Positions 41,316 through 64,000 of a stretch of 64,000 nt of DNA are shown piece by piece. A program made the translations under genes and the position numbers. The notes below the pieces were generated by a model, which ran no database searches, was not told where the DNA came from, and was given only the letters and a program-made list of their open reading frames with translations. Position 1 is the first letter of the stretch. The number at the start of each line of letters is the position of its first letter. The stretch is from Halomonas qaidamensis (lineage in GTDB: Bacteria; Pseudomonadota; Gammaproteobacteria; Pseudomonadales; Halomonadaceae). The stretch lies in the NCBI RefSeq assembly GCF_025917315.1, contig NZ_CP080627.1, positions 2,976,001-3,040,000 on the forward strand, written 5' to 3'.

Positions 41316-41481
41316 CTGTTACCTCTAAGCTGTTTATTGCTGGCCTACTTTAAGCACTGATTTACGTACATTTTCATGCACTGAACCACCACACACGTAT
41401 GGCTTCTATCACTTCGCAATGTATGTCTAGATAGACTCTTTGCTTTATACTTTTATCTTAATTGGATACACAAGGTATATG

Positions 41482-42220: not shown

Positions 42221-44533
42221 TCAATCGACGCAGGCAGGCAGTGTCAATGTAAAAGTACTTCCTTTTCCCAGCTCACTTTCACACTTTACTGTACCATGAT
42301 GCTTCGTGACGACTGTTTTAACTAATGCCAGACCCAAACCATGCCCGCTAGCAACATTTCCTTCATCACTACGCTGATAATCATCAAAAATGCTATCAAT
42401 ATTCTGAGCTGAAATTCCAACGCCATTATCAGATATTATTAATACAACACTCTCACCTTCTCTGTAAAGACGTACACTAACAGAACCATAAGGATGCGTA
42501 TATTTAACAGCATTCTCTATAACATTAAAGACCGCTCTTGCAAGATAGCTTTTATCTCCAATTACAGGCAAACCATCATCACCCTGCAAATCATTTAACA
42601 ACTTAATTTTTTTCATTTTTGCAATAGGCTGCACTTGATCCAACACTTCAATAACGACATCTTCAAATAATAAAAACTGCTTATTCAGGTCGAATGACCT
42701 AGCTCGATTCAAACTAATAAAATCGTTAATCATATCAAGCCCTGTCGTGAGACACTGACCTAACCCTTCATAGAAATCAGCTTGTGACATTGCGGAGCTA
42801 GGGTCTTTTTGTGCATCTAAAAGCGCTAACGCTCTAGCTTGAGGTGCTTTCATATCATGCGATAAAAAGCTCAGCATACTAGAGCGCTGAGCCTCCGCAT
42901 CAACCTCACTGGTCAAATCCACCATCCATATTAACCAACCGCCCGCCACACTATTCGCAGTAGTCGTTAACTCATCCATTTCCAGACGATAAGTACGGCC
43001 TTGTTGATCGGTACACAACCCGCTAACTTTAACATTAGTGAATTCATTAGTACCTTTTGGGCGGGGTGGCCAAAATGACGCAAAAGCATTTTCGTTTTCA
43101 AAGTTAAGTATTTTCGGAAGATCGCCAATGTGGCTAATAGCTCTCTGATTACTCTCCCAGCAAACTTGTTGAGCTTTTCTATTTGCTAGCAAAACTTCGC
43201 CTTGTTTATTAAGTACAAAAATGGCAAGAGGTAGAGAGTTTACCGCGTCAAGAATAAATCTACGCCCTTCAACAATACGCCCTAAAGCAAACTCTAGCGC
43301 CCTGGACTGCTGTTGCAGCTTACCACCTTCTCCAGGCGGTAAAGTAGGTTCTTGAAATGGCAAAATAGAAGGCTCTTGATAGAGCTTTTCAAGCCCCCGT
43401 TTAAACCACGCCAATAGCGCCGACTGGCTCTGCCAGACAATAAGAACGAAAGCAACGCCAAGGGTTATCAAACTAGCGGAGGGCGGCCACCACCACCTAA
43501 AACTCAGCGCTAGGATAGAGGAAAGAAGAACACATATACCCAAAGCAATAACGATGACCAATAAATAACGAAAATGAAACCACCACGCTAGTAACATGAG
43601 AAAAAGAATAGGAGCAACTGACAAAAAGGCCCCCACCCGGCTCTCAACATTTCTGATATAACTATTATCTCTTAACGCATCAAGCAGATGCGCATGTATT
43701 TCAACGCCTGGCATTAACCCCGTTGGCAATAAAGAAACACTATAGCGATCACCTAAGCCTGCAGCGGTCATACCAACTAATACGGTGCGGTCACGTAGTA
43801 GTGAAGCAGGGACATATCCCATCAGAACATCACTATAAGAAACAGTAGGATAAGTACCTTCCGGTCCCTTAAACGGTATTCTAACAGTATTATGCGGCCA
43901 CCGACGGAAAGAAACGTCTTTACTATCCTGATGCGTCTTTTCAACTAATAGAGCCATTAGCTGTGGCCATGTTTCTCCCCGGCGCATTTCAACAAGATTA
44001 ACCGAGCGTGCTGTACCATCATCGTCAATGCTCACATTAATATGCCCCACCCCTTTTGCTGCCGCTAATAATGGGGAGGAAGGCATTAAAATATCGCGCA
44101 TCCCGTATTCGGAAATATGCTCAGACAGAAGGGCAATAGGTATATAGACATTTCCATTATGCCGCATTGCCTCAGCCAGTAACGTATCTTCTTCAGGAAA
44201 ACGACTAGGCTCAATGAGGAGAACATCAAGCACAATAGTCTTAACATCAGCTTCGTCTAGCCGCTGAATGAGCTTTGCGTGTACATCTCTAGACCAAGGC
44301 CAACGCCCTAGTGCATGTAGGCTTGGCTCATCAATCGCAACAATCAAAATATCTGAAGAGGGTGGAGTGACGTGCCTCGACAGCCACGTATCATAAAAAA
44401 AATTATCGAACAGTAAAGGAGACAAACTATAAACACAAAAAGCAATGGGCAGTAATAAGCCGCCCATTGCACACCATGTCAGCATTAACCGACGGCGTAA
44501 TGCTTTAGAAAGGCTACCGCTAACTTGAGTCAT
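42221..44533 (-). CDS. CHASE2-domain sensor histidine kinase
   Basis: 770 residues. Order: an N-terminal membrane anchor (~18-38), a periplasmic CHASE2 domain (~40-300; IVAIDEPSLHALGRWPWSRD and the FFYDTWL start) and three membrane segments (~305-375). A coiled stretch and a PAS-like domain (~430-540) follow. HisKA has SFLSHDMKAPQ (His near residue 560), and HATPase has NVIENAVKYTHP, DNGVGIS and GHGLGLALVK. All catalytic boxes are intact. Its first 14 bases overlap the stop of the LysM-FecR gene, so both are co-translated. No response regulator is beside it, so it is an orphan kinase. It is the last gene of the adhesin-side cluster. Confidence 0.9.
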   Translation of the reverse strand: MTQVSGSLSKALRRRLMLTWCAMGGLLLPIAFCVYSLSPLLFDNFFYDTWLSRHVTPPSSDILIVAIDEPSLHALGRWPWSRDVHAKLIQRLDEADVKTIVLDVLLIEPSRFPEEDTLLAEAMRHNGNVYIPIALLSEHISEYGMRDILMPSSPLLAAAKGVGHINVSIDDDGTARSVNLVEMRRGETWPQLMALLVEKTHQDSKDVSFRRWPHNTVRIPFKGPEGTYPTVSYSDVLMGYVPASLLRDRTVLVGMTAAGLGDRYSVSLLPTGLMPGVEIHAHLLDALRDNSYIRNVESRVGAFLSVAPILFLMLLAWWFHFRYLLVIVIALGICVLLSSILALSFRWWWPPSASLITLGVAFVLIVWQSQSALLAWFKRGLEKLYQEPSILPFQEPTLPPGEGGKLQQQSRALEFALGRIVEGRRFILDAVNSLPLAIFVLNKQGEVLLANRKAQQVCWESNQRAISHIGDLPKILNFENENAFASFWPPRPKGTNEFTNVKVSGLCTDQQGRTYRLEMDELTTTANSVAGGWLIWMVDLTSEVDAEAQRSSMLSFLSHDMKAPQARALALLDAQKDPSSAMSQADFYEGLGQCLTTGLDMINDFISLNRARSFDLNKQFLLFEDVVIEVLDQVQPIAKMKKIKLLNDLQGDDGLPVIGDKSYLARAVFNVIENAVKYTHPYGSVSVRLYREGESVVLIISDNGVGISAQNIDSIFDDYQRSDEGNVASGHGLGLALVKTVVTKHHGTVKCESELGKGSTFTLTLPACVD

Positions 44534-45851: not shown

Positions 45852-45935
45852 AACCCCACCATCCCTTTTTTACATCGGCATACCCACTTCGTATAGTTAT
45901 TCTTTAACAGAAGTTCTATTGCCGAACGCCCATCA

Positions 45936-46853
45936 TTATTCAATGAGCGTATTAGATACCCAGCCTAATGTAGGTAAGCCATTATCCTGAAAATAAACTT
46001 GGCTCCACCCATCCATACTCCCCAGCACATAGACGGATGTACCTCTTGTCAACGATGCAATACGATCAAAGTTAGTGCTTGCTCCGCTACGAATATTGAC
46101 GCTAGACCCCACTATTTTTTTCTCTTCTAAGTTAGGCAAGCTAGCTTCGATGTTCTCTCTCGCGACATCATTTCCACCTTGAGCTGCCATAACGAACCAG
46201 AAAACTGCCCAGGCATGATTTCGCTCTACCCCTTGCCCTCTGGCATGCATCGCACCGAGATTATTTTGTGCAAAAGGGTCGTTCTGTTTGGCAGCCTGCT
46301 CATACCACTCGAAGGCACGGGTGAAGCTTTGTTCTACGCCACGGCCTGTTTCATAAAGGCTACCAATATTATTTTGTGCTGCCACATGCCCCTGTTCAGC
46401 GGCTAGTTCAAACCAGCGCGCGGCAATACTAGAGTCAGCGTCAACGCCTTCACCTTCTAAGTACAATAGGCCTAGCTGAAACTGTGCTGCTGCACTTCCT
46501 GATGTCGCTGCTCTTTCAAACCATTGAGCGGCTGAGCTAGGCTCACCTTCAAGACGTCCAAGCAAGTAAAGTTCTGCCAGCCTGACCTGTGCATCTGCTA
46601 GGCCATTATCCGCCGCAAGCCGATACCATTTATAAGCTTCATCTATACTAGCGCCTACTCCCTGGCCGCGCTCAAACATCATACCTAATGCAAACTGGGA
46701 GTCTGCGTTACCTCGCTCGGCCGCCGTCCGCCACTCGTGGATAGCCGAGGCATAATGGCCACGCTGGTACTCTTGCAGTCCCGTCTCATAATTGGCACTG
46801 GCCAGCGCGCTCGCCCCTAAGAAAACAAAACCAACCAAGGGTAACCATTTCAT
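45936..46853 (-). CDS. Sel1-repeat protein with C-terminal SH3-like domain
   Basis: 305 residues from ATG 46853, with GGAAGAG just upstream; the longer frame from 46871 starts inside the hairpin flank. A signal peptide (MKWLPLVGFVFLGASALASA) sends it to the periplasm. Six Sel1-type repeats of ~36 residues follow (for example DSQFALGMMFERGQGV and AAQNNIGSLYETGRGV, ~25-235). A bacterial SH3 domain with SVNIRSGAS and GWSQVYF follows, ending GWVSNTLIE. Sel1 repeats mediate protein contacts and SH3b domains often bind peptidoglycan peptides. It stands directly behind a terminator-like hairpin and 84 bp before the LysM-FecR gene. Confidence 0.88.
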   Translation of the reverse strand: MKWLPLVGFVFLGASALASANYETGLQEYQRGHYASAIHEWRTAAERGNADSQFALGMMFERGQGVGASIDEAYKWYRLAADNGLADAQVRLAELYLLGRLEGEPSSAAQWFERAATSGSAAAQFQLGLLYLEGEGVDADSSIAARWFELAAEQGHVAAQNNIGSLYETGRGVEQSFTRAFEWYEQAAKQNDPFAQNNLGAMHARGQGVERNHAWAVFWFVMAAQGGNDVARENIEASLPNLEEKKIVGSSVNIRSGASTNFDRIASLTRGTSVYVLGSMDGWSQVYFQDNGLPTLGWVSNTLIE

Positions 46854-46871
46854 ATTAGGCTCTTCCTTCAC

Positions 46872-46901
46872 AAAAGCCCGGTAGGCTTTCGCCTACCGGG
46901 C
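46872..46901 (-). terminator. Intrinsic terminator or attenuator between the DUF6447 and Sel1 genes
   Basis: Perfect 11-bp stem GCCCGGTAGGC and GCCTACCGGGC with a 4-nt loop, followed by TTTT on the minus strand. It lies only 18 bases before the Sel1 start, leaving no room for a promoter in between; only the Sel1 ribosome site fits. Confidence 0.8.
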
Positions 46902-46937
46902 ATTCAACGGTGCAGTGTATTACGCCAGCGAAATAAG

Positions 46938-47306
46938 TTATTTCACTGGTGTCACCGTTTTGGTTACTTCTGCCAGTATGCGAGCATAAGTATTACGTGC
47001 TGTTTGGGTGATCGCTAGTTGATCTTGTAAACGCTGTAGTTCTTGATCAGTAACGCGCAGATTTTGTAACTGCTCGCGTCCCTGCTGCCCCAGACTTTCA
47101 AGGGTATATACTTGGCCATCAATAGTGATCGTTGGCGCTGATACTTGATCACCGACGGCAACAGCCGACTCACTTTCTGAATGACTCATTTCTTGTTCAG
47201 TAGCGTTTACTGCTTTTTCGATAGCATCTGCTGCTTTTTCAGTAGTGCTTGTTTTACTGGCGCTTCTGCTTTTTGCTGAAACGGTGGGACGCTGTTTGCT
47301 CATCAA
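46938..47306 (-). CDS. Small protein with DUF6447-like C-terminus
   Basis: 122 residues. The first ~50 are low-complexity (Ser, Ala, Lys, Thr, Glu) and look disordered. The C-terminal ~70, TITIDGQVYTLESLGQQG, LRVTDQELQRLQDQL and AITQTARNTYARIL, resemble DUF6447, a small conserved domain of unknown function; this is from memory of the pattern. There is no signal peptide or membrane segment, so it is probably cytoplasmic. It is the last gene before the terminator hairpin, downstream of the adhesin and TpgA-like genes. Confidence 0.7.
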   Translation of the reverse strand: MMSKQRPTVSAKSRSASKTSTTEKAADAIEKAVNATEQEMSHSESESAVAVGDQVSAPTITIDGQVYTLESLGQQGREQLQNLRVTDQELQRLQDQLAITQTARNTYARILAEVTKTVTPVK

Positions 47307-47375
47307 AGTTTACCTCTATAGCTAAGTAGTTTCTCAAAACAACGTTAATAATTATTAATCGCTGCGTTACACGTT

Positions 47376-47822
47376 TTATTCAGCTGACTCTGTAGCCTCG
47401 TCACTGTCGAGTTCGACAGAGCCACTTGCTTCAATAGAGTCATCAACTTCGATAGTGTCACCGTTTTCAGGAGGTGTACCAATACGCTCGTGGGTCAATA
47501 CACACAGCACACCTGTGAGAGTATGCTGAATATCAAAATTCGTATCACAGTAGAGTGCCATCGTGTTAAGTAGGCGGCTTTCAAGTATTAATGGGTTTTG
47601 CAGGTCAGTTTCATTAATTGCTAGCCTTGCCATAAATAAACTTCCAGCAGGACACTCTAACGCTTGCTCGTCACTGGCGGCCACACACACTGAGCTTTGG
47701 TCCACGGTGGGGAGAGAAGGTACCTCTTGAGGCTCGGCCATCACGCTCATACTAAACACAGCAAGGCTTACGGCCGTCACAACTGAGGCGGCGAAAGTAG
47801 CAATGTAACCAACATACTTCAT
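47376..47822 (-). CDS. Small exported protein of unknown function
   Basis: 148 residues from ATG 47822, with AGGA eight bases upstream. A signal peptide (KYVGYIATFAASVVTAVS and on to VMAEP) predicts export to the periplasm. The mature part has five cysteines (SVCVAA, ALECPAGS, LYCDTNF, GVLCVLT), and the C-terminal ~35 residues are Glu/Asp/Ser-rich (DDSIEASGSVELDSDE). I do not recognise a family. Its place between the TpgA-like and DUF6447-like genes suggests a role with the adhesin. The odd number of cysteines could mean disulfides within a partner complex. Confidence 0.7.
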   Translation of the reverse strand: MKYVGYIATFAASVVTAVSLAVFSMSVMAEPQEVPSLPTVDQSSVCVAASDEQALECPAGSLFMARLAINETDLQNPLILESRLLNTMALYCDTNFDIQHTLTGVLCVLTHERIGTPPENGDTIEVDDSIEASGSVELDSDEATESAE

Positions 47823-47852
47823 TATCAAGTGTCCTATTTTTAAGTTTCTTAA

Positions 47853-47871
47853 GGGGGGCATTAATCCCCCC
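47853..47871. repeat. Short GC-only hairpin after the TpgA-like gene
   Basis: GGGGGG, a 7-nt loop, then CCCCCC, lying between the TpgA-like gene and the next gene. On the minus strand it is followed by TTAAG, so it is at best a weak terminator. Confidence 0.4.
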
Positions 47872-47921
47872 TGTTTTCACATGCATGTTTTACTTAGCAG
47901 TAAAACCATTTAGCCACACAA

Positions 47922-48755
47922 CTATTGAGCAGTTTCTGTCACCGTAATTTCTACACGCCTATTCGGCCTTAAACACTCAGTAACACTTGGTATTGCAGTT
48001 CTACCGGGGCACTCTACAACAGGGTCTGCCATACCACGCCCTGCTGTCATAACACTTGAGCGACTGATCCCTTGGTTAACCATACGCTCCCCGACTGTCT
48101 CAGCACGAGAATTAGATAGCGCTAAGTTATAAGCCTCACTACCAAAGCGGTCGGTATAACCGATAATCAGTATATTAGGGCTTACAAAATCCTCATTAAT
48201 CGTTTGGGTGACCATATCTACAACACGACGGCCTTCTAAGGTTAATTTATCACTATCAAAATCAAATAATACATCACCCGATAGTGTTAACTTTTCTTGT
48301 CGTGGCTCGGCGGCAACTTCCTCTACTTCAATAGGCACTAAAAGAGCGGGACACTGAGCATCTCGCCAACGTGTGCTTTCTAACGCCATATCGTCGTCAT
48401 AATGCACTTGGTATTGGCATGTGATGTAATCCTGACCATTACCCGTATAGAGGTTAAAGACGTAGTTCCATTCGCGAACCCCAAAGAATCCTTCTGCATA
48501 ATGGGGGTTACCGATTAACTGGCGTACCTGATCCTTGGTTTGACTTTCCCTGATACGTAGGATGCTTTCAGGGTCAACGAACTTACCCCCGTCATACCAG
48601 TTACCTGCCAGTGCAGGAAAGCCATCGCCTGCCTCGCGTAGCTCAGTACGGTCGTTGTTGGGTGGACTGGCACAGCCCGCCAACATGAGAACGCCGGCCA
48701 TACTGGCGGCCCCAAGGGCCGCCTTTTTCATCATCTTATTACGAAGATTTCTCAC
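47922..48755 (-). CDS. tpgA: TpgA-like lipoprotein: SmpA/OmlA plus OmpA-type domains
   Basis: 277 residues from GTG 48755, chosen because AAGGAG lies six bases upstream and overlaps the adhesin stop codon (TAAAGGAG). Lipobox LAGC gives an outer-membrane lipoprotein. The first domain (about residues 55-140) looks SmpA/OmlA (BamE)-like: ESILRIRESQTKDQVRQLIG and EWNYVFNLYTG. The second (~165-277) is OmpA-type peptidoglycan-binding: LFDFDSDKLTLEG, IIGYTDRFGSEAYNLALSNSRA and RPNRRVEI. This two-domain form next to a giant trimeric autotransporter matches TpgA of Acinetobacter sp. Tol 5. TpgA links the AtaA adhesin to peptidoglycan. The match is by architecture and context. Confidence 0.88.
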   Translation of the reverse strand: MRNLRNKMMKKAALGAASMAGVLMLAGCASPPNNDRTELREAGDGFPALAGNWYDGGKFVDPESILRIRESQTKDQVRQLIGNPHYAEGFFGVREWNYVFNLYTGNGQDYITCQYQVHYDDDMALESTRWRDAQCPALLVPIEVEEVAAEPRQEKLTLSGDVLFDFDSDKLTLEGRRVVDMVTQTINEDFVSPNILIIGYTDRFGSEAYNLALSNSRAETVGERMVNQGISRSSVMTAGRGMADPVVECPGRTAIPSVTECLRPNRRVEITVTETAQ

Positions 48756-48766
48756 GTCGTTCTCCT

Positions 48767-54700: not shown

Positions 54701-57700
54701 AATGCTGCCTGGGGTGGTGTCATCTCCCACGATCAGATCACTGCCCAGGGCGAAGTCGATGGCGTTATCGCTCACCGTGGTGACGATGCTGCCGTCGCCA
54801 CTGGTGTAGGTAACGGTCTCGCCCAGCTGGACGTTGTCGTCGGCACCGTTATCCGCGGCGATATTGAAGCCTTGGTTGGCAATCGCTTCGACGTCATTCA
54901 GCTGATCGACATTCACTGCATCCGTGCCGTCTGTGCCCGGGGCGAGGTTGGTGATCTTCGTATCACCCATGTCGATGCCGCCGTTGTTGATCGTCGGGCC
55001 ATCGGTAATCGCTACTTCGGTCAGGCCGCTTAGGTTCTGAGCCAGCTGAACCCTTAGGCTGCCATCGCTATCTTTGGTGATGCCGATATTGCCGTCCGTC
55101 AGGGCGTTCACATCAGCGCCGCCAGTCAAGCCAAGCGTTTCATTCAGCTTGCGCGTTACCACTTCGCCGTCGTCGCCCTGGAACTTCAGGCCGTCGTTCA
55201 GCGTGGCAACTTCTTGATCATTGCCTTCCGGGTCGGTGTAAACGATGCGTGTCACGCCGTCTACGCCATCAACGCCCGGTGCACCGTCCTGGATCGAGAT
55301 GGTGGTTAGGCCATCCGTGCCGTTGGGGCCCGCCGGACCGGCTAGGCCGATCGTGCCGTTCTCGCCATCGATAGCAACGCCGTCTTTACCATCCTTGCCG
55401 TTGACGACAATGCTGCCTGGGGTGGTGTCATCTCCCACGATCAGATCACTGCCCAGGGCGAAGTCGATGGCGTTATCGCTCACCGTGGTGACGATGCTGC
55501 CATCTTCACTGGTGTAGGCAACGGTCTCGCCCAGCTTGACGGTGTCTTCGGTCGCCGCTGGATCTGCCAGATCGGCATTGTCTGCGGTGATGTTGAAGCC
55601 TGTAGTGACCAGGGTGTTATTGGCGTTCTGAAGATCGCCCACGTTCACCGCATTGGTGAGGTCATCACCGGTGGCGGTCTCTAGGGTGGTGCCGGTCAGG
55701 CCGCTTTCCACGCTGGTGATTTGCTTGTCACCCATGTCGGCACCCTGGAAGTTCGGGGTGTCGGCAAACTGGATTTCAATACCACCGGCTTGGGTTGCGA
55801 CGGTCTTGACGTTGCCTGAGGAGTAGGCAATCGGGTCGCCCGCTGCATCGGTGTCGGCGCCGGTGCCCACAATCTGCAGTTCGTCGTTCAGATTACGGGT
55901 GACGTAACCCGCCGTCGTGCCGGTGTTGTCGTTGCCTGAGAAGCGCAGGCCGTCATCTTCTAGCGTGGCCACGGTCTTGTTGTTGCCATCGCCGTCTTCG
56001 AAGGTCAGACGTGTCACGTCAGTGGCGTCGGCCATGACGTCGCCCGGTAGGATCTGCGGACGCAGGATGGTTTGTGGGCTGATGCCATTCTGACCCGCCG
56101 GACCTGTCAGGCCGATGGAGCCGTCTGCGCCGTTGATCGCAACGCCACTCACGCCGTCGGCACCGTCAACCCCTAACGTGCCGTCCACCCCTGGCTCGCC
56201 AGGCGCGCCCGGGCCACCAATGGTGAGGTCGGTGTTCAACGCGAAGTCGATTTCGTTGTCACGCACCGTGGTGATGATGTTGCCATCGTCACTGGTGTAG
56301 GCAACGGTCTCGCCCAGGGCAACGGTGTCTTCCGTCGCCGCTGGATCGGCTAGATCGGCATTGTCTGCGGTGATGTTGAAGCCTGTAGTGACCAGGGTGT
56401 TATTGGCGTTCTGAAGATCGCCCACGTTCACCGCATTGGTGAGGTCATCACCGGTGGCGGTCTCTAGGGTGGTGCCGGTCAGGCCGCTTTCCACGCTGGT
56501 GATTTGCTTGTCACCCATGTCGGCACCCTGGAAGTTCGGGGTGTCGGCAAACTGGATTTCAATACCACCGGCTTGGGTTGCGACGGTCTTGACGTTGCCT
56601 GAGGAGTAGGCAATCGGGGCGCCCGCTGCATCGGTGTCGGCACCGGTGCCCACAATCTGCAGTTCGTCGTTCAGATTACGGGTGACGTAACCATCCGCGG
56701 TACCGGTGTTGTCGTTACCCGAGAAGCGCAGGCCGTCATCTTCCAGCGTGGCCACGGTCTTGTTGTTGCCATCGCCGTCTTCGAAGGTCAGACGTGTCAC
56801 GTCAGTGGCGTCGGCCATGACGTCGCCCGGTAGGATCTGCGGACGCAGGATGGTTTGTGGGCTGATGCCATTCTGACCCGCCGGACCTGTCAGGCCGATG
56901 GAGCCGTCTGCGCCGTTGATCGCAACGCCACTCACGCCGTCGGCACCGTCAACCCCTAACGTGCCGTCCACCCCTGGTTCGCCAGGCGCGCCCGGACCAC
57001 CAATGGTGAGGTCGGTGTTCAACGCGAAGTCGATTTCGTTGTCACGCACCGTGGTGATGATGTTGCCATCGTCACTGGTGTAGGCCACGGTCTCGCCCAG
57101 CTTGACGGTGTCTTCGGTCGCCGCTGGATCTGCCAGATCGGCATTGTCTGCGGTGATGTTGAAGCCTGTAGTGACCAGGGTGTTATTGGCGTTCTGAAGA
57201 TCGCCCACGTTCACCGCATTGGTGAGGTCATCACCGGTGGCGGTCTCTAGGGTGGTGCCGGTCAGGCCGCTTTCCACGCTGGTGATTTGCTTGTCACCCA
57301 TGTCGGCACCCTGGAAGTTCGGGGTGTCGGCAAACTGGATTTCAATACCACCGGCTTGGGTTGCGACGGTCTTGACGTTGCCTGAGGAGTAGGCAATCGG
57401 GGCGCCCGCTGCATCGGTGTCGGCACCGGTGCCCACAATCTGCAGTTCGTCGTTCAGATTACGGGTGACGTAACCATCCGCGGTACCGGTGTTGTCGTTA
57501 CCCGAGAAGCGCAGGCCGTCATCTTCCAGCGTGGCCACGGTCTTGTTGTTGCCATCGCCGTCTTCGAAGGTCAGACGTGTCACGTCAGTGGCGTCGGCCA
57601 TGACGTCGCCCGGTAGGATCTGCGGACGCAGGATGGTTTGTGGGCTGATGCCATTCTGACCCGCCGGACCTGTCAGGCCGATGGAGCCGTCTGCGCCGTT

Positions 57701-60700
57701 GATCGCAACGCCACTCACGCCGTCAGCACCGTCAACTCCAATCTTACCGTCGACGCCTGGCTCGCCAGGCGCGCCCGGGCCACCAATGGTGAGGTCGGTG
57801 TTCAACGCGAAGTCGATTTCGTTGTCACGCACCGTGGTGATGATGTTGCCATCGTCACTGGTGTAGGCCACGGTCTCGCCCAGGGCAACGGTGTCTTCCG
57901 TCGCCGCCGGATCGGCTAGATCGGCATTGTCTGCGGTGATGTTGAAGCCTGTAGTGACCAGGGTGTTATTGGCGTTCTGAAGATCGCCCACGTTCACCGC
58001 ATTGGTGAGGTCATCACCGGTGGCGGTCTCTAGGGTGGTGCCGGTCAGGCCGCTTTCCACGCTGGTGATTTGCTTGTCACCCATGTCGGCACCCTGGAAG
58101 TTCGGGGTGTCGGCAAACTGGATTTCAATACCACCGGCTTGGGTTGCGACGGTCTTGACGTTGCCTGAGGAGTAGGCAATCGGGGCGCCCGCTGCATCGG
58201 TGTCGGCACCGGTGCCCACAATCTGCAGTTCGTCGTTCAGATTACGGGTGACGTAACCATCCGCGGTACCGGTGTTGTCGTTACCCGAGAAGCGCAGGCC
58301 GTCATCTTCCAGCGTGGCCACGGTCTTGTTGTTGCCATCGCCGTCTTCGAAGGTCAGACGTGTCACGTCAGTGGCGTCGGCCATGACGTCGCCCGGTAGG
58401 ATCTGCGGACGCAGGATGGTTTGTGGGCTGATGCCATTCTGACCCGCCGGACCTGTCAGGCCGATGGAGCCGTCTGCGCCGTTGATCGCAACGCCACTCA
58501 CGCCGTCAGCACCGTCAACTCCAATCTTACCGTCGACGCCTGGCTCGCCAGGCGCGCCCGGGCCACCAATGGTGAGGTCGGTGTTCAACGCGAAGTCGAT
58601 TTCGTTGTCACGCACCGTGGTGATGATGTTGCCATCGTCACTGGTGTAGGCCACGGTCTCGCCCAGGGCAACGGTGTCTTCCGTCGCCGCCGGATCGGCT
58701 AGATCGGCATTGTCTGCGGTGATGTTGAAGCCTGTAGTGACCAGGGTGTTATTGGCGTTCTGAAGATCGCCCACGTTCACCGCATTGGTGAGGTCATCAC
58801 CGGTGGCGGTCTCTAGGGTGGTGCCGGTCAGGCCGCTTTCCACGCTGGTGATTTGCTTGTCACCCATGTCGGCACCCTGGAAGTTCGGGGTGTCGGCAAA
58901 CTGGATTTCAATACCACCGGCTTGGGTTGCGACGGTCTTGACGTTGCCTGAGGAGTAGGCAATCGGGGCGCCCGCTGCATCGGTGTCGGCACCGGTGCCC
59001 ACAATCTGCAGTTCGTCGTTCAGATTACGGGTGACGTAACCATCCGCGGTACCGGTGTTGTCGTTACCCGAGAAGCGCAGGCCGTCATCTTCCAGCGTGG
59101 CCACGGTCTTGTTGTTGCCATCGCCGTCTTCGAAGGTCAGACGTGTCACGTCAGTGGCGTCGGCCATGACGTCGCCCGGTAGGATCTGCGGACGCAGGAT
59201 GGTTTGTGGGCTGATGCCATTCTGACCCGCCGGACCTGTCAGGCCGATGGAGCCGTCTGCGCCGTTGATCGCAACGCCACTCACGCCGTCGGCACCGTCA
59301 ACCCCTAACGTGCCGTCCACCCCTGGTTCGCCAGGCGCGCCCGGACCACCAATGGTGAGGTCGGTGTTCAACGCGAAGTCGATTTCGTTGTCACGCACCG
59401 TGGTGATGATGTTGCCATCGTCACTGGTGTAGGCCACGGTCTCGCCCAGCTTGACGGTGTCTTCGGTCGCCGCTGGATCGGCCAGATCGGCATTGTCTGC
59501 GGTGATGTTGAAGCCTTGGTCAACGACGTTGTTCAAGGCCTTCAGCTGCGCGACGTTAACGGCGTCGCTATCAGCGGTACCTGCAGCAACGCCGGTGACT
59601 TGACGATATAAGCCAACGCCTTCATCACCAACCGCCACGGCACCATAGGTTGATTTGGTGGCCGTAATCGCTGGATCATTATCATCCGCGATACCCGTCA
59701 ACGGGTTATAACCGGAAATACCCGCTCCAGTATTGGCGTTGGAAGCGGTACCAATGGCAACGCCGCCTTCTACGCTAACATCAGCAAAGTTACCAAGCAC
59801 AAAGGCGTTATCTTGATCAATATTGTTAACCGCACCGATCACTGAGGAGAGATTACCGCTAACGGTATTTTGACCACCTAACGCTGTTGAGAGCTTGCCA
59901 GAAACTTCATTTTGGTAGCCGATCGCCCGCGAGAAACCACCGCCGGTTACCTTGTTCTCGAAGCCCATCGCAACAGACGTTCGTCCTTCCACTTGGTTAC
60001 GAATACCAAATGCGGTGGAGTTTTCACCGGAAATGTTGTTCGTGAAACCGAAGGCTGAAGAAAAACGGCCGGAAACTTCGTTCAGCTGCCCAATTACCGT
60101 CGTATTTTGTGCCTGCAACTTGTTTTCGCGGCCAATGGCAATAGCGGTAAATGAGTCCCCTGGTGTGCCTGCACCCAGTACGTTATTTGCACCTATAGCA
60201 ATCTGACTTTGACTGTTTGTATTGTTATTGAAACCTAAGGCTACTGAACGTTCTCCCTCCGCCGTGTTTCCAGTACCCACTGCCGTCGCATTATTGGCAG
60301 ATGCAGAGTTGTTATTCCCTACGGCGGTAGCAGAATTGCCAGCCGCTAACGCGTTGGTACCTGCTGCAAGAGCATTGACACCTGTTGCACCGTCGTTGTT
60401 GAAGTTGCCTTGCTGGGTGCCATTATCATTGACGCTGTAGTAGCGAATTCTCTGTGCTGCTAATTGATTAACGTTGACAGCATCGGTGCCAGCGACACCA
60501 GGTGCCAGGTTGGTGATGGTGTTCCCCCCCATGTTGATGCCGGTGTTATTAATCACCGGACCACCGTTAATGGTGAGGCTGTCAGCCGTCAGATCTGGCG
60601 ACGTGGCAACCGTAATATCGGTGCCCGTACGCGTAATATCGATGTTTTGACCATCTATGAATTGGACGGTGGCATTGGGTGCAACGTTTGTCGCTGTATC

Positions 60701-63700
60701 GCCGTTGGTCTGCACGTTCCAACCAGCATTGGCAACATTGCTAACGCTTGTCAGCTGCTCCTGTGTCGCTGCTTGGCCACCAGTGTAAGTGACGTTCGGG
60801 TCGAAGGTGGTGTTGGTCAGGCCACTGATCGTGCCGGCATCGCCATCAATCGAGACAGGGTTGGTAGACCCCACGCTGAGCACGTCCGCTAGGCCAAGCT
60901 GTACACCGTCTGCCGTGGTGGTAGAGGTAACGTTGGCATCACCGTTAACATTAATGGTGTCGCCTAACGCGTAGTTATTTGACGTCGCACCGTCACCAAA
61001 GTTGAGACCTTTATTGATCTCGGTGGTGTTGTTCGTCACGTTGGTATTCGTCGCGAACAACTGGCTGCCGTTGACGGCGTCCGTCGAGGTCGCGCTGAGA
61101 TCACCCGCTTGCACGTTGGTGATCTTGTCACCCCCTACGTCCAGGCCATCCACCGTACTGGTGATCACGGTGTTATTGGTAGCATCACCAATTGTTACCT
61201 GAGTGAACTCAACTTCGTCAGCAGTCGCAACTTCAATCACCTGATCGGCATTGCGGCTTATCTCGATATTCTTGCCATCGATAAACTGAACCGTTTCACC
61301 CGGTGCGACGTTATCCGCGGTTTCAGCATTAACCTGAACATCCCAGCCAGCATTGGCAACATTGCTAACGCTTGTCAGCTGCTCCTGTGTCGCTGCTTGG
61401 CCACCAGTGTAAGTGGCGTTCGGGTCAAAGGTGGTGTTGGTCAGGCCACTAATCGTGCCGGTATCACCGTTGATCGTGACAGGATTGGTAGACCCCACAC
61501 TGAGCACGTCCGCTAGGCCAAGCTGTACACCGTCTGCCGTGGTGATAGAGGTAACGTTGCTATCACCGTTCACATTAATGGTGTCGCCTAACGCGTACTT
61601 GTTCGACGTAGCACCGTCGCCAAAGTTAATGCCTTTGTCGATCTCGGCAGCATTGTTGGTGATGTTGGTCGTGTTGGTCGTGACATTTTCATTCGTCGCG
61701 AACAGCTGGCTGCCGTTGACGGCGTCCGTCGAGGTCGCGCTGAGATCACCCGCTTGCACGTTGGTGATCTTGTCACCCCCCACGTCCAGGCCATCCACCG
61801 TACTGGTGATCACGGTGTTATTGGTAGCATCACCAATTGTTACCTGAGTGAACTCAACTTCGTCCTCGGTGGCAAAGGTGATCTTGTTTGCATCACGGCT
61901 AACGTCAATATTCTTGCCTTCAGCAAAAATCGCCGTTTCACCCGGGCCGATGTTTTCGGACATAAGTTCAGTGTTGGCTTGGAGGCTCCAACCGCTGTTA
62001 GCCAACTCATTCACTGCTTTCAACTGGCTGACGTTGACCGCATCGGTATCTGTCGCACCGGCAGCCACGTTGGTGATACGACGCTCACTACCACTGGTGC
62101 CGACGGAAACTTCGCTAGCTGCTGAATCAGCTGCCACAGACGTCGCGCCTGTGGGTACATAGGCTGTTGCTGTTAGGGTGCTACCATTAGCAACAGAGCC
62201 GCTACCCAGCGCAACACCCGCGTCATAAGTAACATCCGCATTTTTGCCAAGTGCAACACCATCGCTCTCGCCGACCGTCGAGGCCTTAGCACCGTCACCA
62301 ATCACCACATTACCTGCACCATTGGCTTGAGCATTCATACCAATGGCAATATCACCTTGGCCAAAAGTGGTAGCGTCATTACCGATGGCTACCTGGCCAC
62401 TTCCAAAGACCTGTGTTGTAGCGCCATCACCCACAGCAACTGAAGAATCGCTCGCGGCTAACGCGTTGGTACCTGCTGCAAGAGCATTGACACCTGTTGC
62501 ACCGTCGTTGTTGAAGTTGCCTTGTTGGGTGCCATTATCATTGACGCTGTAGTAGCGAATTCTCTGTGCTGCTAATTGATTAACGTTGACAGCATCGGTG
62601 CCAGCGACACCAGGTGCCAGGTTGGTGATGGTGTTCCCCCCCATGTTGATGCCGGTGTTATTAATCACCGGACCACCGTTGATGGTGAGGCTGTCAGCCG
62701 TCAGATCTGGCGACGTGGCAACCGTAATATCGGTGCCCGTACGCGTAATATCGATGTTTTGACCATCTATGAATTGGACGGTGGCATTGGGTGCAACGTT
62801 TGTCGCTGTATCGCCGTTGGTCTGCACGTTCCAACCAGCATTGGCAACATTGCTAACGCTTGTCAGCTGCTCCTGGGTCGCTGCTTGGCCACCGGTGTAA
62901 GTGGCGTTCGGGTCGAAGGTGGTGTTGGTCAGGCCACTAATCGTGCCGGCATCGCCATCAATCGAGACAGGGTTGGTAGACCCCACACTGAGCACGTCCG
63001 CTAGGCCAAGCTGTACACCGTCTGCCGTGGTGGTAGAGGTAACGTTGGCATCACCGTTAACATTAATGGTGTCGCCTAACGCGTACTTGTTCGACGTAGC
63101 ACCGTCGCCAAAGTTAATGCCTTTGTCGATCTCGGCAGCATTGTTGGTGATGTTGGTCGTGTTGGTCGTGACATTTTCATTCGTCGCGAACAGCTGGCTG
63201 CCGTTGACAGCGTCCGTCGATGTCGCGCTGAGATCACCCGCTTGCACGTTGGTGATCTTGTCACCCCCTACGTCCAGGCCATCCACCGTACTGGTGATCA
63301 CGGTGTTATTGGTAGCATCACCAATTGTTACCTGAGTGAACTCAACTTCGTCAGCAGTCGCAACTTCAATCACCTGATCGGCATTGCGGCTTATCTCGAT
63401 ATTCTTGCCATCGATAAACTGAACCGTTTCACCCGGTGCGACGTTATCCGCGGTTTCAGCATTAACCTGAACATCCCAGCCAGCATTGGCCAATTCATTC
63501 ACTGCTTTTAATTGGCTGACGTTAACCGCGTCAGTGTCAGTTGCACCAGCAGCCACATTAGTAATGCGACGCTCGTTACCAGCACTACCGACTGAAACTT
63601 CGCTATCCGCCGTGGGCGCTGCAACAGCGATCGGGTTGCCGTTAACATCCAGCGGTTGGTAAGCCGCTGTACTCAACGTGCTGCCGTCGGCAACGGAGTT

Positions 63701-64000
63701 GGAACCCAGAGCAATGCTGTTGGTTGCTGAGGCTTGGGCCCCTCGACCAATAGCAACAGCATTTGCGTTGCTTGCTTCTGCATTGCGGCCTATCGCGTTT
63801 GAAGAGTTGCCAGAAGCAATAGCCTGGAATCCCATCGCATTTGAAGAGCCACCTGATGCAGTCGCCTGGAAGCCCATCGCATTTGTGTAATCCGCAGAAG
63901 CGGTTGCGTCACGACCAATTGCATTTGAGAACTCTCCAGAAGCAATTGTCTGATGGCCTATCGCATTTGAAACACGAGCAGAAGCCGTTGCGTTACGGCC
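48767..64000 (-). CDS. Giant trimeric autotransporter adhesin (partial; N-terminus beyond window)
   Basis: The frame is open from the right edge (5077 codons here plus stop), so the start codon and signal peptide lie outside. From the N-terminal side: YadA head 14-mers (SNAIGR, NAMGFQ), HANS-type neck blocks (ERRITNVAAGATDTDAVNVSQLK) and Ala/Asn-rich head modules. A stalk with two perfect-looking arrays follows (55511-59425 and 51971-55510). More stalk and two C-terminal heads come next, then a coiled-coil and the YadA membrane anchor (SAISVGVSRL and ending GAGWHW). Collagen-like Gly-x-y runs occur in the arrays (GAPGEPGVDG, DGKDGVAIDG). The protein should form a surface fibre for adhesion. 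It is followed by tpgA with an overlapping ribosome site. Repeat identity makes the true length uncertain in short-read assemblies. Confidence 0.95.
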   Translation of the reverse strand, partial: GRNATASARVSNAIGHQTIASGEFSNAIGRDATASADYTNAMGFQATASGGSSNAMGFQAIASGNSSNAIGRNAEASNANAVAIGRGAQASATNSIALGSNSVADGSTLSTAAYQPLDVNGNPIAVAAPTADSEVSVGSAGNERRITNVAAGATDTDAVNVSQLKAVNELANAGWDVQVNAETADNVAPGETVQFIDGKNIEISRNADQVIEVATADEVEFTQVTIGDATNNTVITSTVDGLDVGGDKITNVQAGDLSATSTDAVNGSQLFATNENVTTNTTNITNNAAEIDKGINFGDGATSNKYALGDTINVNGDANVTSTTTADGVQLGLADVLSVGSTNPVSIDGDAGTISGLTNTTFDPNATYTGGQAATQEQLTSVSNVANAGWNVQTNGDTATNVAPNATVQFIDGQNIDITRTGTDITVATSPDLTADSLTINGGPVINNTGINMGGNTITNLAPGVAGTDAVNVNQLAAQRIRYYSVNDNGTQQGNFNNDGATGVNALAAGTNALAASDSSVAVGDGATTQVFGSGQVAIGNDATTFGQGDIAIGMNAQANGAGNVVIGDGAKASTVGESDGVALGKNADVTYDAGVALGSGSVANGSTLTATAYVPTGATSVAADSAASEVSVGTSGSERRITNVAAGATDTDAVNVSQLKAVNELANSGWSLQANTELMSENIGPGETAIFAEGKNIDVSRDANKITFATEDEVEFTQVTIGDATNNTVITSTVDGLDVGGDKITNVQAGDLSATSTDAVNGSQLFATNENVTTNTTNITNNAAEIDKGINFGDGATSNKYALGDTINVNGDSNVTSITTADGVQLGLADVLSVGSTNPVTINGDTGTISGLTNTTFDPNATYTGGQAATQEQLTSVSNVANAGWDVQVNAETADNVAPGETVQFIDGKNIEISRNADQVIEVATADEVEFTQVTIGDATNNTVITSTVDGLDVGGDKITNVQAGDLSATSTDAVNGSQLFATNTNVTNNTTEINKGLNFGDGATSNNYALGDTINVNGDANVTSTTTADGVQLGLADVLSVGSTNPVSIDGDAGTISGLTNTTFDPNVTYTGGQAATQEQLTSVSNVANAGWNVQTNGDTATNVAPNATVQFIDGQNIDITRTGTDITVATSPDLTADSLTINGGPVINNTGINMGGNTITNLAPGVAGTDAVNVNQLAAQRIRYYSVNDNGTQQGNFNNDGATGVNALAAGTNALAAGNSATAVGNNNSASANNATAVGTGNTAEGERSVALGFNNNTNSQSQIAIGANNVLGAGTPGDSFTAIAIGRENKLQAQNTTVIGQLNEVSGRFSSAFGFTNNISGENSTAFGIRNQVEGRTSVAMGFENKVTGGGFSRAIGYQNEVSGKLSTALGGQNTVSGNLSSVIGAVNNIDQDNAFVLGNFADVSVEGGVAIGTASNANTGAGISGYNPLTGIADDNDPAITATKSTYGAVAVGDEGVGLYRQVTGVAAGTADSDAVNVAQLKALNNVVDQGFNITADNADLADPAATEDTVKLGETVAYTSDDGNIITTVRDNEIDFALNTDLTIGGPGAPGEPGVDGTLGVDGADGVSGVAINGADGSIGLTGPAGQNGISPQTILRPQILPGDVMADATDVTRLTFEDGDGNNKTVATLEDDGLRFSGNDNTGTADGYVTRNLNDELQIVGTGADTDAAGAPIAYSSGNVKTVATQAGGIEIQFADTPNFQGADMGDKQITSVESGLTGTTLETATGDDLTNAVNVGDLQNANNTLVTTGFNITADNADLADPAATEDTVALGETVAYTSDDGNIITTVRDNEIDFALNTDLTIGGPGAPGEPGVDGKIGVDGADGVSGVAINGADGSIGLTGPAGQNGISPQTILRPQILPGDVMADATDVTRLTFEDGDGNNKTVATLEDDGLRFSGNDNTGTADGYVTRNLNDELQIVGTGADTDAAGAPIAYSSGNVKTVATQAGGIEIQFADTPNFQGADMGDKQITSVESGLTGTTLETATGDDLTNAVNVGDLQNANNTLVTTGFNITADNADLADPAATEDTVALGETVAYTSDDGNIITTVRDNEIDFALNTDLTIGGPGAPGEPGVDGKIGVDGADGVSGVAINGADGSIGLTGPAGQNGISPQTILRPQILPGDVMADATDVTRLTFEDGDGNNKTVATLEDDGLRFSGNDNTGTADGYVTRNLNDELQIVGTGADTDAAGAPIAYSSGNVKTVATQAGGIEIQFADTPNFQGADMGDKQITSVESGLTGTTLETATGDDLTNAVNVGDLQNANNTLVTTGFNITADNADLADPAATEDTVKLGETVAYTSDDGNIITTVRDNEIDFALNTDLTIGGPGAPGEPGVDGTLGVDGADGVSGVAINGADGSIGLTGPAGQNGISPQTILRPQILPGDVMADATDVTRLTFEDGDGNNKTVATLEDDGLRFSGNDNTGTADGYVTRNLNDELQIVGTGADTDAAGAPIAYSSGNVKTVATQAGGIEIQFADTPNFQGADMGDKQITSVESGLTGTTLETATGDDLTNAVNVGDLQNANNTLVTTGFNITADNADLADPAATEDTVALGETVAYTSDDGNIITTVRDNEIDFALNTDLTIGGPGAPGEPGVDGTLGVDGADGVSGVAINGADGSIGLTGPAGQNGISPQTILRPQILPGDVMADATDVTRLTFEDGDGNNKTVATLEDDGLRFSGNDNTGTTAGYVTRNLNDELQIVGTGADTDAAGDPIAYSSGNVKTVATQAGGIEIQFADTPNFQGADMGDKQITSVESGLTGTTLETATGDDLTNAVNVGDLQNANNTLVTTGFNITADNADLADPAATEDTVKLGETVAYTSEDGSIVTTVSDNAIDFALGSDLIVGDDTTPGSIVVNGKDGKDGVAIDGENGTIGLAGPAGPNGTDGLTTISIQDGAPGVDGVDGVTRIVYTDPEGNDQEVATLNDGLKFQGDDGEVVTRKLNETLGLTGGADVNALTDGNIGITKDSDGSLRVQLAQNLSGLTEVAITDGPTINNGGIDMGDTKITNLAPGTDGTDAVNVDQLNDVEAIANQGFNIAADNGADDNVQLGETVTYTSGDGSIVTTVSDNAIDFALGSDLIVGDDTTPGSIVVNGKDGKDGVAIDGENGTIGLAGPAGPNGTDGLTTISIQDGAPGVDGVDGVTRIVYTDPEGNDQEVATLNDGLKFQGDDGEVVTRKLNETLGLTGGADVNALTDGNIGITKDSDGSLRVQLAQNLSGLTEVAITDGPTINNGGIDMGDTKITNLAPGTDGTDAVNVDQLNDVEAIANQGFNIAADNGADDNVQLGETVTYTSGDGSIVTTVSDNAIDFALGSDLIVGDDTTPGSIVVNGKDGKDGVAIDGENGTIGLAGPAGPNGTDGLTTISIQDGAPGVDGVDGVTRIVYTDPEGNDQEVATLNDGLKFQGDDGEVVTRKLNETLGLTGGADVNALTDGNIGITKDSDGSLRVQLAQNLSGLTEVAITDGPTINNGGIDMGDTKITNLAPGTDGTDAVNVDQLNDVEAIANQGFNIAADNGADDNVQLGETVTYTSGDGSIVTTVSDNAIDFALGSDLIVGDDTTPGSIVVNGKDGKDGVAIDGENGTIGLAGPAGPNGTDGLTTISIQDGAPGVDGVDGVTRIVYTDPEGNDQEVATLNDGLKFQGDDGEVVTRKLNETLGLTGGADVNALTDGNIGITKDSDGSLRVQLAQNLSGLTEVAITDGPTINNGGIDMGDTKITNLAPGTDGTDAVNVDQLNDVEAIANQGFNIAADNGADDNVQLGETVAYTSEDGSIITTVSDNAIDFALGSDLIVGDDTTPGSIVVNGKDGKDGVAIDGENGTIGLAGPAGPNGTDGLTTISIQDGAPGVDGVDGVTRIVYTDPEGNDQEVATLNDGLKFQGDDGEVVTRKLNETLGLTGGADVNALTDGNIGITKDSDGSLRVQLAQNLSGLTEVAITDGPTINNGGIDMGDTKITNLAPGTDGTDAVNVDQLNDVEAIANQGFNIAADNGADDNVQLGETVAYTSEDGSIITTVSDNAIDFALGNNLSVGQAGQDGVDGTIGVNGKDGSSVVLNGKDGTIGLTGPAGSTTIGIDGTNGSDGVDGESITRIVYDDQEVATLNDGLKFGANDGDVHNAKLNTQVDITGAAGNTDWSAFDEGQNIMTQVDGNNITVALARDLTGLNSATFGDITGDTFFTINDIGAQFIDGTGSQVANTPSITIGGIDAGNQTITNVAPGEVSATSTDAINGSQLQAVSDQANAPLTFAGNTNSIQKRLGETVSILGNGDKADASYSADNIKTMVNAEGNLMVMIDKDPTFDTVVLNDGNNGLSFYGIDGATGSRGIDGEDGLSRIAYIRDDADGNPIEETIATLSDGLIFEGDDEVSVLRNLNETLSLTGGATGELSENNIGITHNGEGGLKVQLANNLTGLENITSNNLTVTGETKLGDRFVVNGDQVTYNIAPEGITEGNQVVNKDYVDNAGDQLIATNPLTFGADEGEDTQRRLGERLDIVGEADEKGNRNIVTKLTDKQTLALALNDDLEIGNSISVGDSGPVISADGISMGDNKITNMADGDVSADSKDAINGSQLYQLESIVTNVTGDISNEYVTDNGLGIRYVRTNDRGLSVSDAFAQGQGSTAVGYEARAAADRALALGYQAVASHQGSVALGEGSVTADTVRTTSVVIAGTTYQFAGAGEGVVSTVSVGSEGNERTVTNVAAGRISAESTDAINGSQLYATNQAVGALDSRVTNVEGDISNITNDLADLDDRAVKYDRNDDNSVDYSTITLAGDNGTTITNVAPGDVTKDSMDAVNGSQLWEVSNQITNIEQGGSKYFRANSEGPAANPQGADSIAMGPSSVAAGDRSVASGAGAQANTEGSVALGAGSVADREGMNGERERFSNEAVASTQGAVSVGSAGNERQITNVAGGTQATDAVNVRQLEAVQRGAVNYDRDEDGNVNYNTITLRGEEGTTITNVAPGINETDAVNVGQMNELGRRFTNEINNVHGRIDSVERNANAGSASAIAASTVPQAWMPGKSMIGVGAGTYGGESAISVGVSRLSDNGRWIIQGKITGDSQSNFGAGIGAGWHW
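48770..49010 (-). other. YadA-type C-terminal membrane anchor of the adhesin
   Basis: The last ~80 residues begin after a coiled-coil (RFTNEINNVHGRIDSVERN). They continue with VPQAWMPGKSMIGVGAGTYGGESA and end WIIQGKITGDS...GAGIGAGWHW, the four-strand anchor that trimerises into a 12-strand pore. Confidence 0.88.
51971..55510 (-). repeat. Tandem array A: five 708-bp units in the adhesin
   Basis: Units start at 51971, 52679, 53387, 54095 and 54803, landmarked by the TAGGCAACGG / TAGGTAACGG site. Each codes 236 residues with collagen-like DGKDGVAIDGENGTIG, a GTDGTDAVNV neck and a QGFNIAADNGADD linker. Copies differ by only a few bases, for example TCTTCACTGG against CGCCACTGG at unit ends. Confidence 0.95.
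55511..59425 (-). repeat. Tandem array B: five 783-bp units in the adhesin
   Basis: Units start at 55511, 56294, 57077, 57860 and 58643, directly after array A. Each codes 261 residues, with GGPGAPGEPGVDG, SGVAINGADGSIG and GQNGISPQTILRP. The GVDGTLGVDG / GVDGKIGVDG and KLGET / ALGET variants mark the units, as does NTGTAD against NTGTTA. Both arrays share the LGETVAYTS module. Confidence 0.95.
60345..61357 (-). repeat. Duplicated ~1-kb block, copy 1
   Basis: Near-identical to 62457-63490 (offset 2112 bp, then 2133 bp after a 21-bp difference near 61050). It codes heads and stalk modules with VNALAAGTNALAA and TPxxTAD necks. A third related module lies at 61358-61850. Confidence 0.85.
62457..63490 (-). 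repeat. Duplicated ~1-kb block, copy 2
   Basis: Second copy of the block at 60345-61357. It carries 21 extra bases (seven residues, around NVTTNTTNIT). Confidence 0.85.

Follow-up and report, generated by a model that had tools for sequence, protein, structure and literature searches.

A candidate BiofilmReg-type two-component system arranged around, and probably controlling, a giant adhesin with a TpgA-like anchor in Halomonas qaidamensis

In a 64,000-nucleotide stretch of the Halomonas qaidamensis genome (NCBI RefSeq assembly GCF_025917315.1, contig NZ_CP080627.1, positions 2,976,001 to 3,040,000; hereafter the window), a giant trimeric autotransporter adhesin (TAA) gene heads a run of genes that ends in a CHASE2 histidine kinase, which raises the question of whether the kinase controls the adhesin, monitors it or is only its neighbour. 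The initial annotation had described seven consecutive minus-strand genes, from the trimeric autotransporter to the kinase, as one system in which the wall-linked state of the adhesin is passed to the kinase; all seven genes were confirmed at 42221-64000. Our comparison of the locus with its relatives suggests instead an envelope sensor used by the cell to control the giant adhesin. On balance, we consider it probable that a two-component system of the type named BiofilmReg in Burkholderia has been rearranged around the TpgA-anchored adhesin and controls it. The features are listed below, in window positions unless the contig is named.

48767 to 64000, continuing to contig position 3046441, minus strand: giant TAA, the C-terminal 5,077 of about 7,224 codons lying in the window (open frame)
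47922 to 48773, minus strand: TpgA-like BamE and OmpA protein (Pfam BamE E=1e-13, OmpA E=4e-17)
47376 to 47861, minus strand: small exported protein with four conserved cysteines (4-Cys; no Pfam or NCBIfam family)
46938 to 47306, minus strand: DUF6447 protein (Pfam DUF6447 30.1 bits, cut-off 27)
46876 to 46901, minus strand: hairpin and TTTT between the DUF6447 and Sel1 genes, probable attenuator or partial terminator
45936 to 46871, minus strand: exported-looking protein with five Sel1 repeats and an SH3 domain (Sel1/SH3; Pfam Sel1 E=4e-45, SH3_3 E=2e-10)
44520 to 45851, minus strand: periplasmic LysM-FecR protein, proposed co-sensor (Pfam LysM 1e-5, FecR 2e-15)
42221 to 44533, minus strand: CHASE2-(PAS)-histidine kinase (Pfam CHASE2 E=3e-53, HATPase_c E=2e-26)
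41440 to 42213: trmO, convergent, beyond the kinase
contig 3047889 to 3048629, outside the window: OmpR-family response regulator (RR, P0008), divergent from the adhesin

The output regulator, which had been placed outside the window, was found next door. The RR gene lies 1.4 kb past the adhesin start (Response_reg E=3e-20, Trans_reg_C E=2e-18) and is followed by purC and then by a bamC-like gene, whose bamC match falls just under the Pfam cut-off. Because the RR sits beyond the adhesin start, it and the LysM-FecR/CHASE2 kinase pair bracket the adhesin operon. The RR and adhesin genes were divergent in all nine other Vreelandella genomes whose sequence let us read both on one stretch, including G016, in which TpgA fragments and inserted genes lie between the two; the contig of G018 ends before any adhesin start. 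Moreover, wherever all three genes were read in Vreelandella stretches, the RR lay between purC and the adhesin, divergent from the latter. At a search threshold of E<=1e-40, the RR was present in all 24 LysM-FecR genomes found in the two genera Vreelandella and Halomonas (11 from one search and 13 from a second), and in neither of the two LysM-FecR genomes of g41. Among 14 genomes with a TpgA match and no LysM-FecR, the RR was absent from 12, and G170 and G055 gave matches of 37% and 65%. One incomplete genome, G041, had the RR without a LysM-FecR match.

The linkage of the kinase pair with the adhesin holds within the family. In the search of 61 genomes of the genus Vreelandella, our own included, an orthologue of the LysM-FecR gene was found in 11, the copy of G049 being cut by a contig end. 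Eight of these 11, again with our own, also carry YadA-anchor adhesins; in G049 and G058 the adhesin starts on other contigs, and the G058 contig begins within TpgA. The order TAA-TpgA-4-Cys-DUF6447-Sel1-LysM/FecR-CHASE2 is kept in eight genomes (G004, G044, G011, G035, G018, G226, G242 and G277), DUF6447 was not found at the G043 locus, and BLAST gave matches to trmO at the distal end in G043, G055, G226, G242, G277 and the Halomonas genome G262. At 12 of the 14 Vreelandella loci fetched, no more than about 4 kb separated a TpgA-like gene from the kinase pair. In Halomonas proper (g56), all nine LysM-FecR loci have an adjacent CHASE2 kinase and, at a distance of about 4 kb or less, a TpgA-like gene; gene order varies among them. 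At six of them (G165, G174, G200, G219, G265 and G286) the TpgA-like gene stands immediately next to the kinase gene and converges on it, and all four convergent genes tested gave a BamE match and no OmpA match. An adhesin gene is adjacent at six of the nine loci (G165, G174, G236, G262, G265 and G288) and is not adjacent at the other three (G200, G219 and G286). Across 250 Halomonadaceae genomes, 26 had LysM-FecR (E<=1e-30), 36 had TpgA and 22 had the two together; LysM-FecR stood without a TpgA match in G049 (contig cut), in G219, which has a below-threshold TpgA-like gene beside the kinase, and in G138 and G169. In the latter two, which belong to g41, the neighbour of LysM-FecR encodes a CHASE2-GGDEF-EAL protein, and neither an RR nor a TAA nor a convincing TpgA is found close by. 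The TpgA match of G021 comes from another gene, which neighbours a BapA-like adhesin.

Three further observations were made at these loci. In G016 (L041:8287-18046, L052), the frames of the adhesin and the CHASE2 kinase are both broken, by co-decay or by assembly error, and a repeated pair of inserted open reading frames lies between TpgA and the 4-Cys gene. One Halomonas genome has an usher gene (Pfam) near the RR (L141:12994-17444), and in another, frames that look fimbria-like, by look only, follow the kinase (L139:16210-20000).

We then turn to where the sensor came from. A class-wide search of 321 genomes (LysM-FecR at E<=1e-15) gave matches in 28 genomes besides our own, at 30 places, 20 of which were read in stretches of 10-18 kb each. 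A CHASE2 gene directly follows LysM-FecR at all 20 of these loci outside the family, and a TAA C-terminus was found in none of the 20 stretches, other adhesin types not having been sought. The outputs were a plain histidine kinase with an adjacent OmpR-type RR at 11 loci, which have the layout of the Burkholderia BiofilmReg operon, a hybrid kinase at 2 (L158 and L159, with weak RR-like frames upstream), GGDEF-EAL at 5 and GGDEF at 2. Outside the two genera, all 13 plain CHASE2 kinases beside LysM-FecR are adjoined by an OmpR-type RR and none of the 9 GGDEF-type proteins is, with the reservation that two of the nine stretches (L164 and L167, both GGDEF-EAL) begin 0.1 and 1.1 kb before LysM-FecR, so that an upstream RR could be missed there. 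The contiguous order RR-LysM/FecR-kinase was seen at 13 loci outside the family; in G063 and G079, from the same taxonomic order as our genome, this arrangement likewise came with no TAA in the stretch.

In the RR tree, our RRs formed one clade (99/96) that grouped with the regulators of the contiguous trios, apart from 11 of the 12 other OmpR-type RRs of our own genome (100/100). This tree held no Burkholderia BiofilmReg sequence; the 12 own-genome paralogues in it replaced six outgroup RRs (two L158 rows, L129, L130, L090 and L172_278), and a 14th own-genome Trans_reg_C match (L191, a 936-aa frame) was left out. The kinase tree gave the same subgroups, with a distance correlation of 0.97 over 29 taxa that none of 2000 permutations reached, a correlation that shared species history could also give. 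OmpR-type RR genes were also seen downstream of TpgA in Collimonas silvisoli (L080:4498-7622, about 30 bp) and in a Burkholderiaceae metagenome-assembled genome (L087:8796-10492, about 220 bp); in the tree both sit close to the Halomonadaceae RR, with long branches, and their placement is unsure.

The sensor pair itself is closely knit. LysM-FecR adjoins a CHASE2 gene at 47 of the 48 loci read, including 14 in Vreelandella, 9 in Halomonas and 2 in g41. The two genes overlap by 14 nt in the window, and their frames overlap at 11 of 12 Vreelandella loci examined. The HisKA domain of the kinase scored under the Pfam cut-off (13.9 vs 26.9 bits), as did PAS; the H-box histidine (SHDMK) and the HATPase motifs were invariant in 10 aligned sequences. 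LysM-FecR is predicted to carry two C-terminal Ig/FN3-like beta domains; its AlphaFold2 (AF2) model has a mean confidence (pLDDT) of 71, and the Foldseek matches were FN3 proteins with low TM-scores. The single exception to adjacency, L121 (L121:1-10810, Rhodanobacter sp. PCA2), has LysM-FecR with a hybrid kinase, divergent from a TAA-TpgA pair; it is only a lead on independent linkage, because this hybrid kinase has no CHASE2 match. A weak partial LysM or FecR match (G077:C2) had no CHASE2 match on the same contig. Outputs beside LysM-FecR (L158-L177 and the Halomonadaceae loci) swap among kinase, hybrid kinase, GGDEF and GGDEF-EAL.

On the other side of the locus stands a giant repeat protein with a YadA-type C-terminal membrane anchor. 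Its gene starts 6.4 kb past the window edge (L002:8442 = contig 3046441), which gives a length of about 7,224-7,225 aa, and its N-terminus, MNNVFRLIWNR, is a motif of the extended-signal-peptide type. YadA_anchor scored 67.3 bits against a cut-off of 22.7 (contig 3024770-3024952), and the C-terminus matched the membrane-anchor structures of Hia (3emo, E=3e-25) and AtaA (9vnj_A, E=4e-15). The next gene, which overlaps the adhesin stop by 7 nt given a TTG start, encodes a protein with a BamE-like N-terminal and an OmpA-like C-terminal domain, in which a lipobox-like LAGC is visible and which matches the solved TpgA-N (9vnj_B, E=8e-16). Since it scored 159.5 bits against a cut-off of 350 in the TpgA equivalog test (NCBIfam NF047726), we regard it as a TpgA homologue and not as an equivalog; its closest TpgA match, among the matches listed, is in Halomonas alkaliantarctica FS-N4 (99% identity). 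By analogy, the protein may bind both the barrel and peptidoglycan and thereby join the adhesin to the wall. Three TpgA genes each are present in G044, G011, G242 and G277, and two in G226, beside one set of the kinase-side genes. In G021, a giant adhesin-like frame of 3,354 aa, in which Pfam finds a BapA prefix and Big_6 repeats, is immediately preceded by a TpgA-like gene with a Pfam OmpA domain (L053:383-11609), and in G043 another TpgA-like gene immediately precedes a 2,598-aa giant adhesin-like frame (L055:3040-11866). This hints at a role of TpgA-like anchors for adhesins other than autotransporters as well.

The genes between the anchor and the kinase pair were assigned to the two sides by their neighbourhoods. 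We scanned for TpgA in contigs of one genome per species and kept the best 80 of 223 places, that is, 77 distinct loci among the nearest relatives (22 from 18 Halomonadaceae genomes, 55 from elsewhere), counting neighbours within up to 10 kb on each side, per Halomonadaceae genome. Sel1/SH3 was near TpgA in 18 of the 18 Halomonadaceae genomes, the 4-Cys gene in 14, DUF6447 in 11, and LysM-FecR with the CHASE2 kinase in 9. At the 55 other loci, Sel1/SH3 was clear in one (Salinisphaera, L083) and weak in two (L088, L091), and LysM-FecR was near in one (Rhodanobacter, L121); we attributed the kinase-profile matches in L082 and L129, which had no Pfam test, to the kinase core. These counts place Sel1/SH3 and 4-Cys on the adhesin side and make the kinase pair a regulator present in a subset. 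Thus, of the expectation that the Sel1, LysM-FecR and CHASE2 genes travel with the adhesin, the Sel1 part holds and the kinase part holds in half of the genomes. The idea of one system survives as a conserved set with a kinase pair linked to the adhesin within the family, and the five extra genes do not form one unit. The 4-Cys protein has at least 61 homologue clusters, and among the matches listed the named ones are from Halomonadaceae, bar one from Guyparkeria. C46, C57, C92 and C107 are invariant in 50 sequences, and the AF2 model (pLDDT 77) gave no fold match in the PDB at E<=0.001.

Besides the gene content, order, co-occurrence and ancestry observed above, we infer a pairing of RR and kinase, a promoter target and a direction of control. 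LysM-FecR on the wall, together with the CHASE2 domain, would form a periplasmic sensor, and the kinase would phosphorylate the divergent OmpR-family RR. The regulator would act at the intergenic region that it shares with the adhesin and so set the expression of the adhesin and its own. TpgA would hold the adhesin barrel to the wall, and the Sel1/SH3 and 4-Cys proteins would serve as adhesin accessories.

Several observations weigh against this reading. The adhesin can do without the kinase pair, since 9 of the 18 Halomonadaceae genomes have none within 10 kb of TpgA. In G055, adhesin, TpgA, 4-Cys, DUF6447 and Sel1 are followed by trmO, the RR is kept and the LysM-FecR/kinase pair is absent; in G021, a truncated RR, LysM-FecR and the kinase are kept, and the adhesin is absent there. 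Between the truncated RR and the LysM-FecR-kinase pair of G021 lies a transposase gene instead (HTH_38 and rve, a make-up that we take to be IS30-like). These gene contents mean that the parts can persist apart. In the RR tree, the trio group also takes in the paralogue L189 and, on long branches, two betaproteobacterial RRs; a tree holding trio and locus RRs together without these three gave an AU p of 0.068. The family-level co-occurrence (p = 2e-18) is not leaned on, as the co-occurrence p values ignore relatedness. Footprinting of the RR-adhesin intergenic region revealed no motif common to all 10 regions. Two candidate palindromes, picked by eye after alignment, occur in 5 of the 10 regions each, AGTAAGTGCTTACT at 0-1 mismatches and GTTAACAATTGTTAAC-like sequences at 0-4 mismatches; because these motifs are subclade-specific, no RR-binding site is claimed.

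Some of these points would be expected if the two parts were only neighbours, the ancestral envelope two-component system regulating other genes, such as those for cyclic di-GMP, polysaccharide or chaperone-usher pili. The separate persistence in G021 and G055 fits this explanation, as do the usher gene near the RR in L141, the fimbria-like frames after the kinase in L139 (not Pfam-tested) and the 20 outside loci free of a TAA. However, the linkage outlasts rearrangement in two genera, where orders differ and partners stay, and the RR is divergent to the adhesin in every Vreelandella stretch with both read. We consider mere neighbourhood unlikely.

It is also rather unlikely that Sel1, LysM-FecR and the kinase form a transcript separate from the adhesin operon with a role of its own. 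The hairpin before Sel1 (GCCCGG..CCGGGC, then four T, at 46901-46876) would suit such a break: hairpin and TTTT were found in 9 of 15 loci scanned, our own included, and over 8 distinct sequences both bases were altered in 3 of the 11 pairs, with 98.9% of cells paired. However, the T-run has just four T, and the neighbourhood counts tie Sel1 to the adhesin rather than to the kinase. Moreover, the hairpin leaves only about 22 nt to the ATG of Sel1, a spacing that makes partial read-through or attenuation a likelier outcome than a full break in the operon. Behind TpgA, hairpins with different sequences were seen in 11 of the 14 gaps inspected, though not in the window itself. Together, the hairpins fit a stepped expression, with much anchor and little sensor, and fall short of proving separate operons; one transcript for all seven genes is not a safe assumption. 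A sigma-70 promoter scan was uninformative (12 found vs 12.3 expected from shuffles), and an Rfam scan gave five tRNAs and nothing else. NCBIfam matches for P0004 (MerG/ExoR/MotX) and P0005 (Lsa33/LapA retention) lay far under their cut-offs and were put down to shared repeats or folds.

The proposal of the initial annotation, that TpgA or LysM-FecR reports the assembly or load of the wall-linked adhesin and that the CHASE2 kinase passes the signal on to the RR, appears quite improbable. It draws on the position of LysM-FecR and the kinase at the end of the adhesin operon, on the convergent BamE/TpgA-like neighbour of the kinase in six of nine Halomonas loci, three of them without an adjacent adhesin, and on the grip of TpgA-N on the AtaA barrel in 9VNJ, as given in the available text of PMC13082670. 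Against it stand the adhesin genomes without the kinase pair and the 20 outside loci; the expectation that CHASE2/LysM-FecR genes do not usually occur without the adhesin failed outside Halomonadaceae. As LysM-FecR/CHASE2 occurs in many lineages without a nearby TAA, it was probably not for the adhesin that the sensing evolved. Signalling from the kinase to the adhesin is thus better supported than signalling from adhesin state to the kinase, and monitoring of the wall link is a speculation that is possible and not favoured. A mechanosensory circuit is a long shot: in it, load on the wall-bound fibre of some 7,000 residues would shift TpgA or LysM-FecR against peptidoglycan, the CHASE2 kinase would read this shift in the periplasm, and the divergent OmpR-family RR would tune the gene of the fibre itself. 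In this picture, LysM-FecR would more generally be a constant partner of CHASE2 sensors at the wall, with outputs that can be exchanged (kinase, GGDEF or GGDEF-EAL).

We finally compared the locus, read as an adhesin under the control of its flanking two-component system, with three known kinds of system. As in Acinetobacter sp. Tol 5, where tpgA is presumably the neighbour gene of the AtaA gene, a giant TAA is followed by a BamE and OmpA protein, and both match chains of 9VNJ; unlike there, 4-Cys, DUF6447 and Sel1/SH3 genes follow, with a link to a two-component system. The AtaA-TpgA complex has been solved, with TpgA-N gripping the AtaA barrel, according to the accessible portion of PMC13082670. 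Gammaproteobacterial LysM-FecR and CHASE2 sensors with GGDEF, GGDEF-EAL or hybrid-kinase outputs have the same partner and input, which ties CHASE2 to LysM-FecR across output types. The GGDEF and GGDEF-EAL kinds differ from our locus in that no adjacent OmpR-type RR was seen, and the hybrid-kinase kind has weak RR-like frames upstream.

The third kind is the closest. A CHASE2 kinase with a LysM-FecR partner is not new, being already described in Burkholderia as a biofilm regulator: in the portion of PMC5192318 available to us, the BiofilmReg operon consists of an RR, a LysM-FecR 'PBP', a CHASE2-PAS kinase and a DUF4136 protein. There, an insertion in the RR removed biofilm and was polar according to the authors, with transcription of all four genes stopped, and the CHASE2 input is called unknown. 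In the excerpted text of PMC4324302, six suppressor mutants in the RR Bcen2424_1436 made much less biofilm, and Bcen2424_1438, with Chase2 and PAS domains, is named as its partner; this pair looks like the BiofilmReg system. Our locus likewise combines an OmpR/CreB-like RR, of common descent with the contiguous-trio RRs, a LysM and FecR periplasmic protein and a CHASE2-PAS histidine kinase, with LysM-FecR adjoining the kinase. It differs in that the contiguous one-strand order RR-LysM/FecR-kinase is absent: the RR is split off on the opposite strand and lies some 14-50 kb away from the kinase, across the adhesin operon. DUF4136, the fourth gene of the Burkholderia lineage, had no Pfam match among the locus or RR-side genes. 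As far as the available parts of PMC5192318 and PMC4324302 go, the system is tied to biofilm, its signal and direct targets are not identified, and an adhesin link is not described; titles and abstract openings in the open-access literature likewise gave no publication linking a TpgA-anchored adhesin with a BiofilmReg-type system. What is new is the combination of two known kinds, a BiofilmReg-type system and a TpgA-anchored adhesin, and the locus offers a concrete candidate target for such a system: in environmental halophiles, the gene of a giant wall-anchored adhesin that has a divergent promoter region in common with the regulator.

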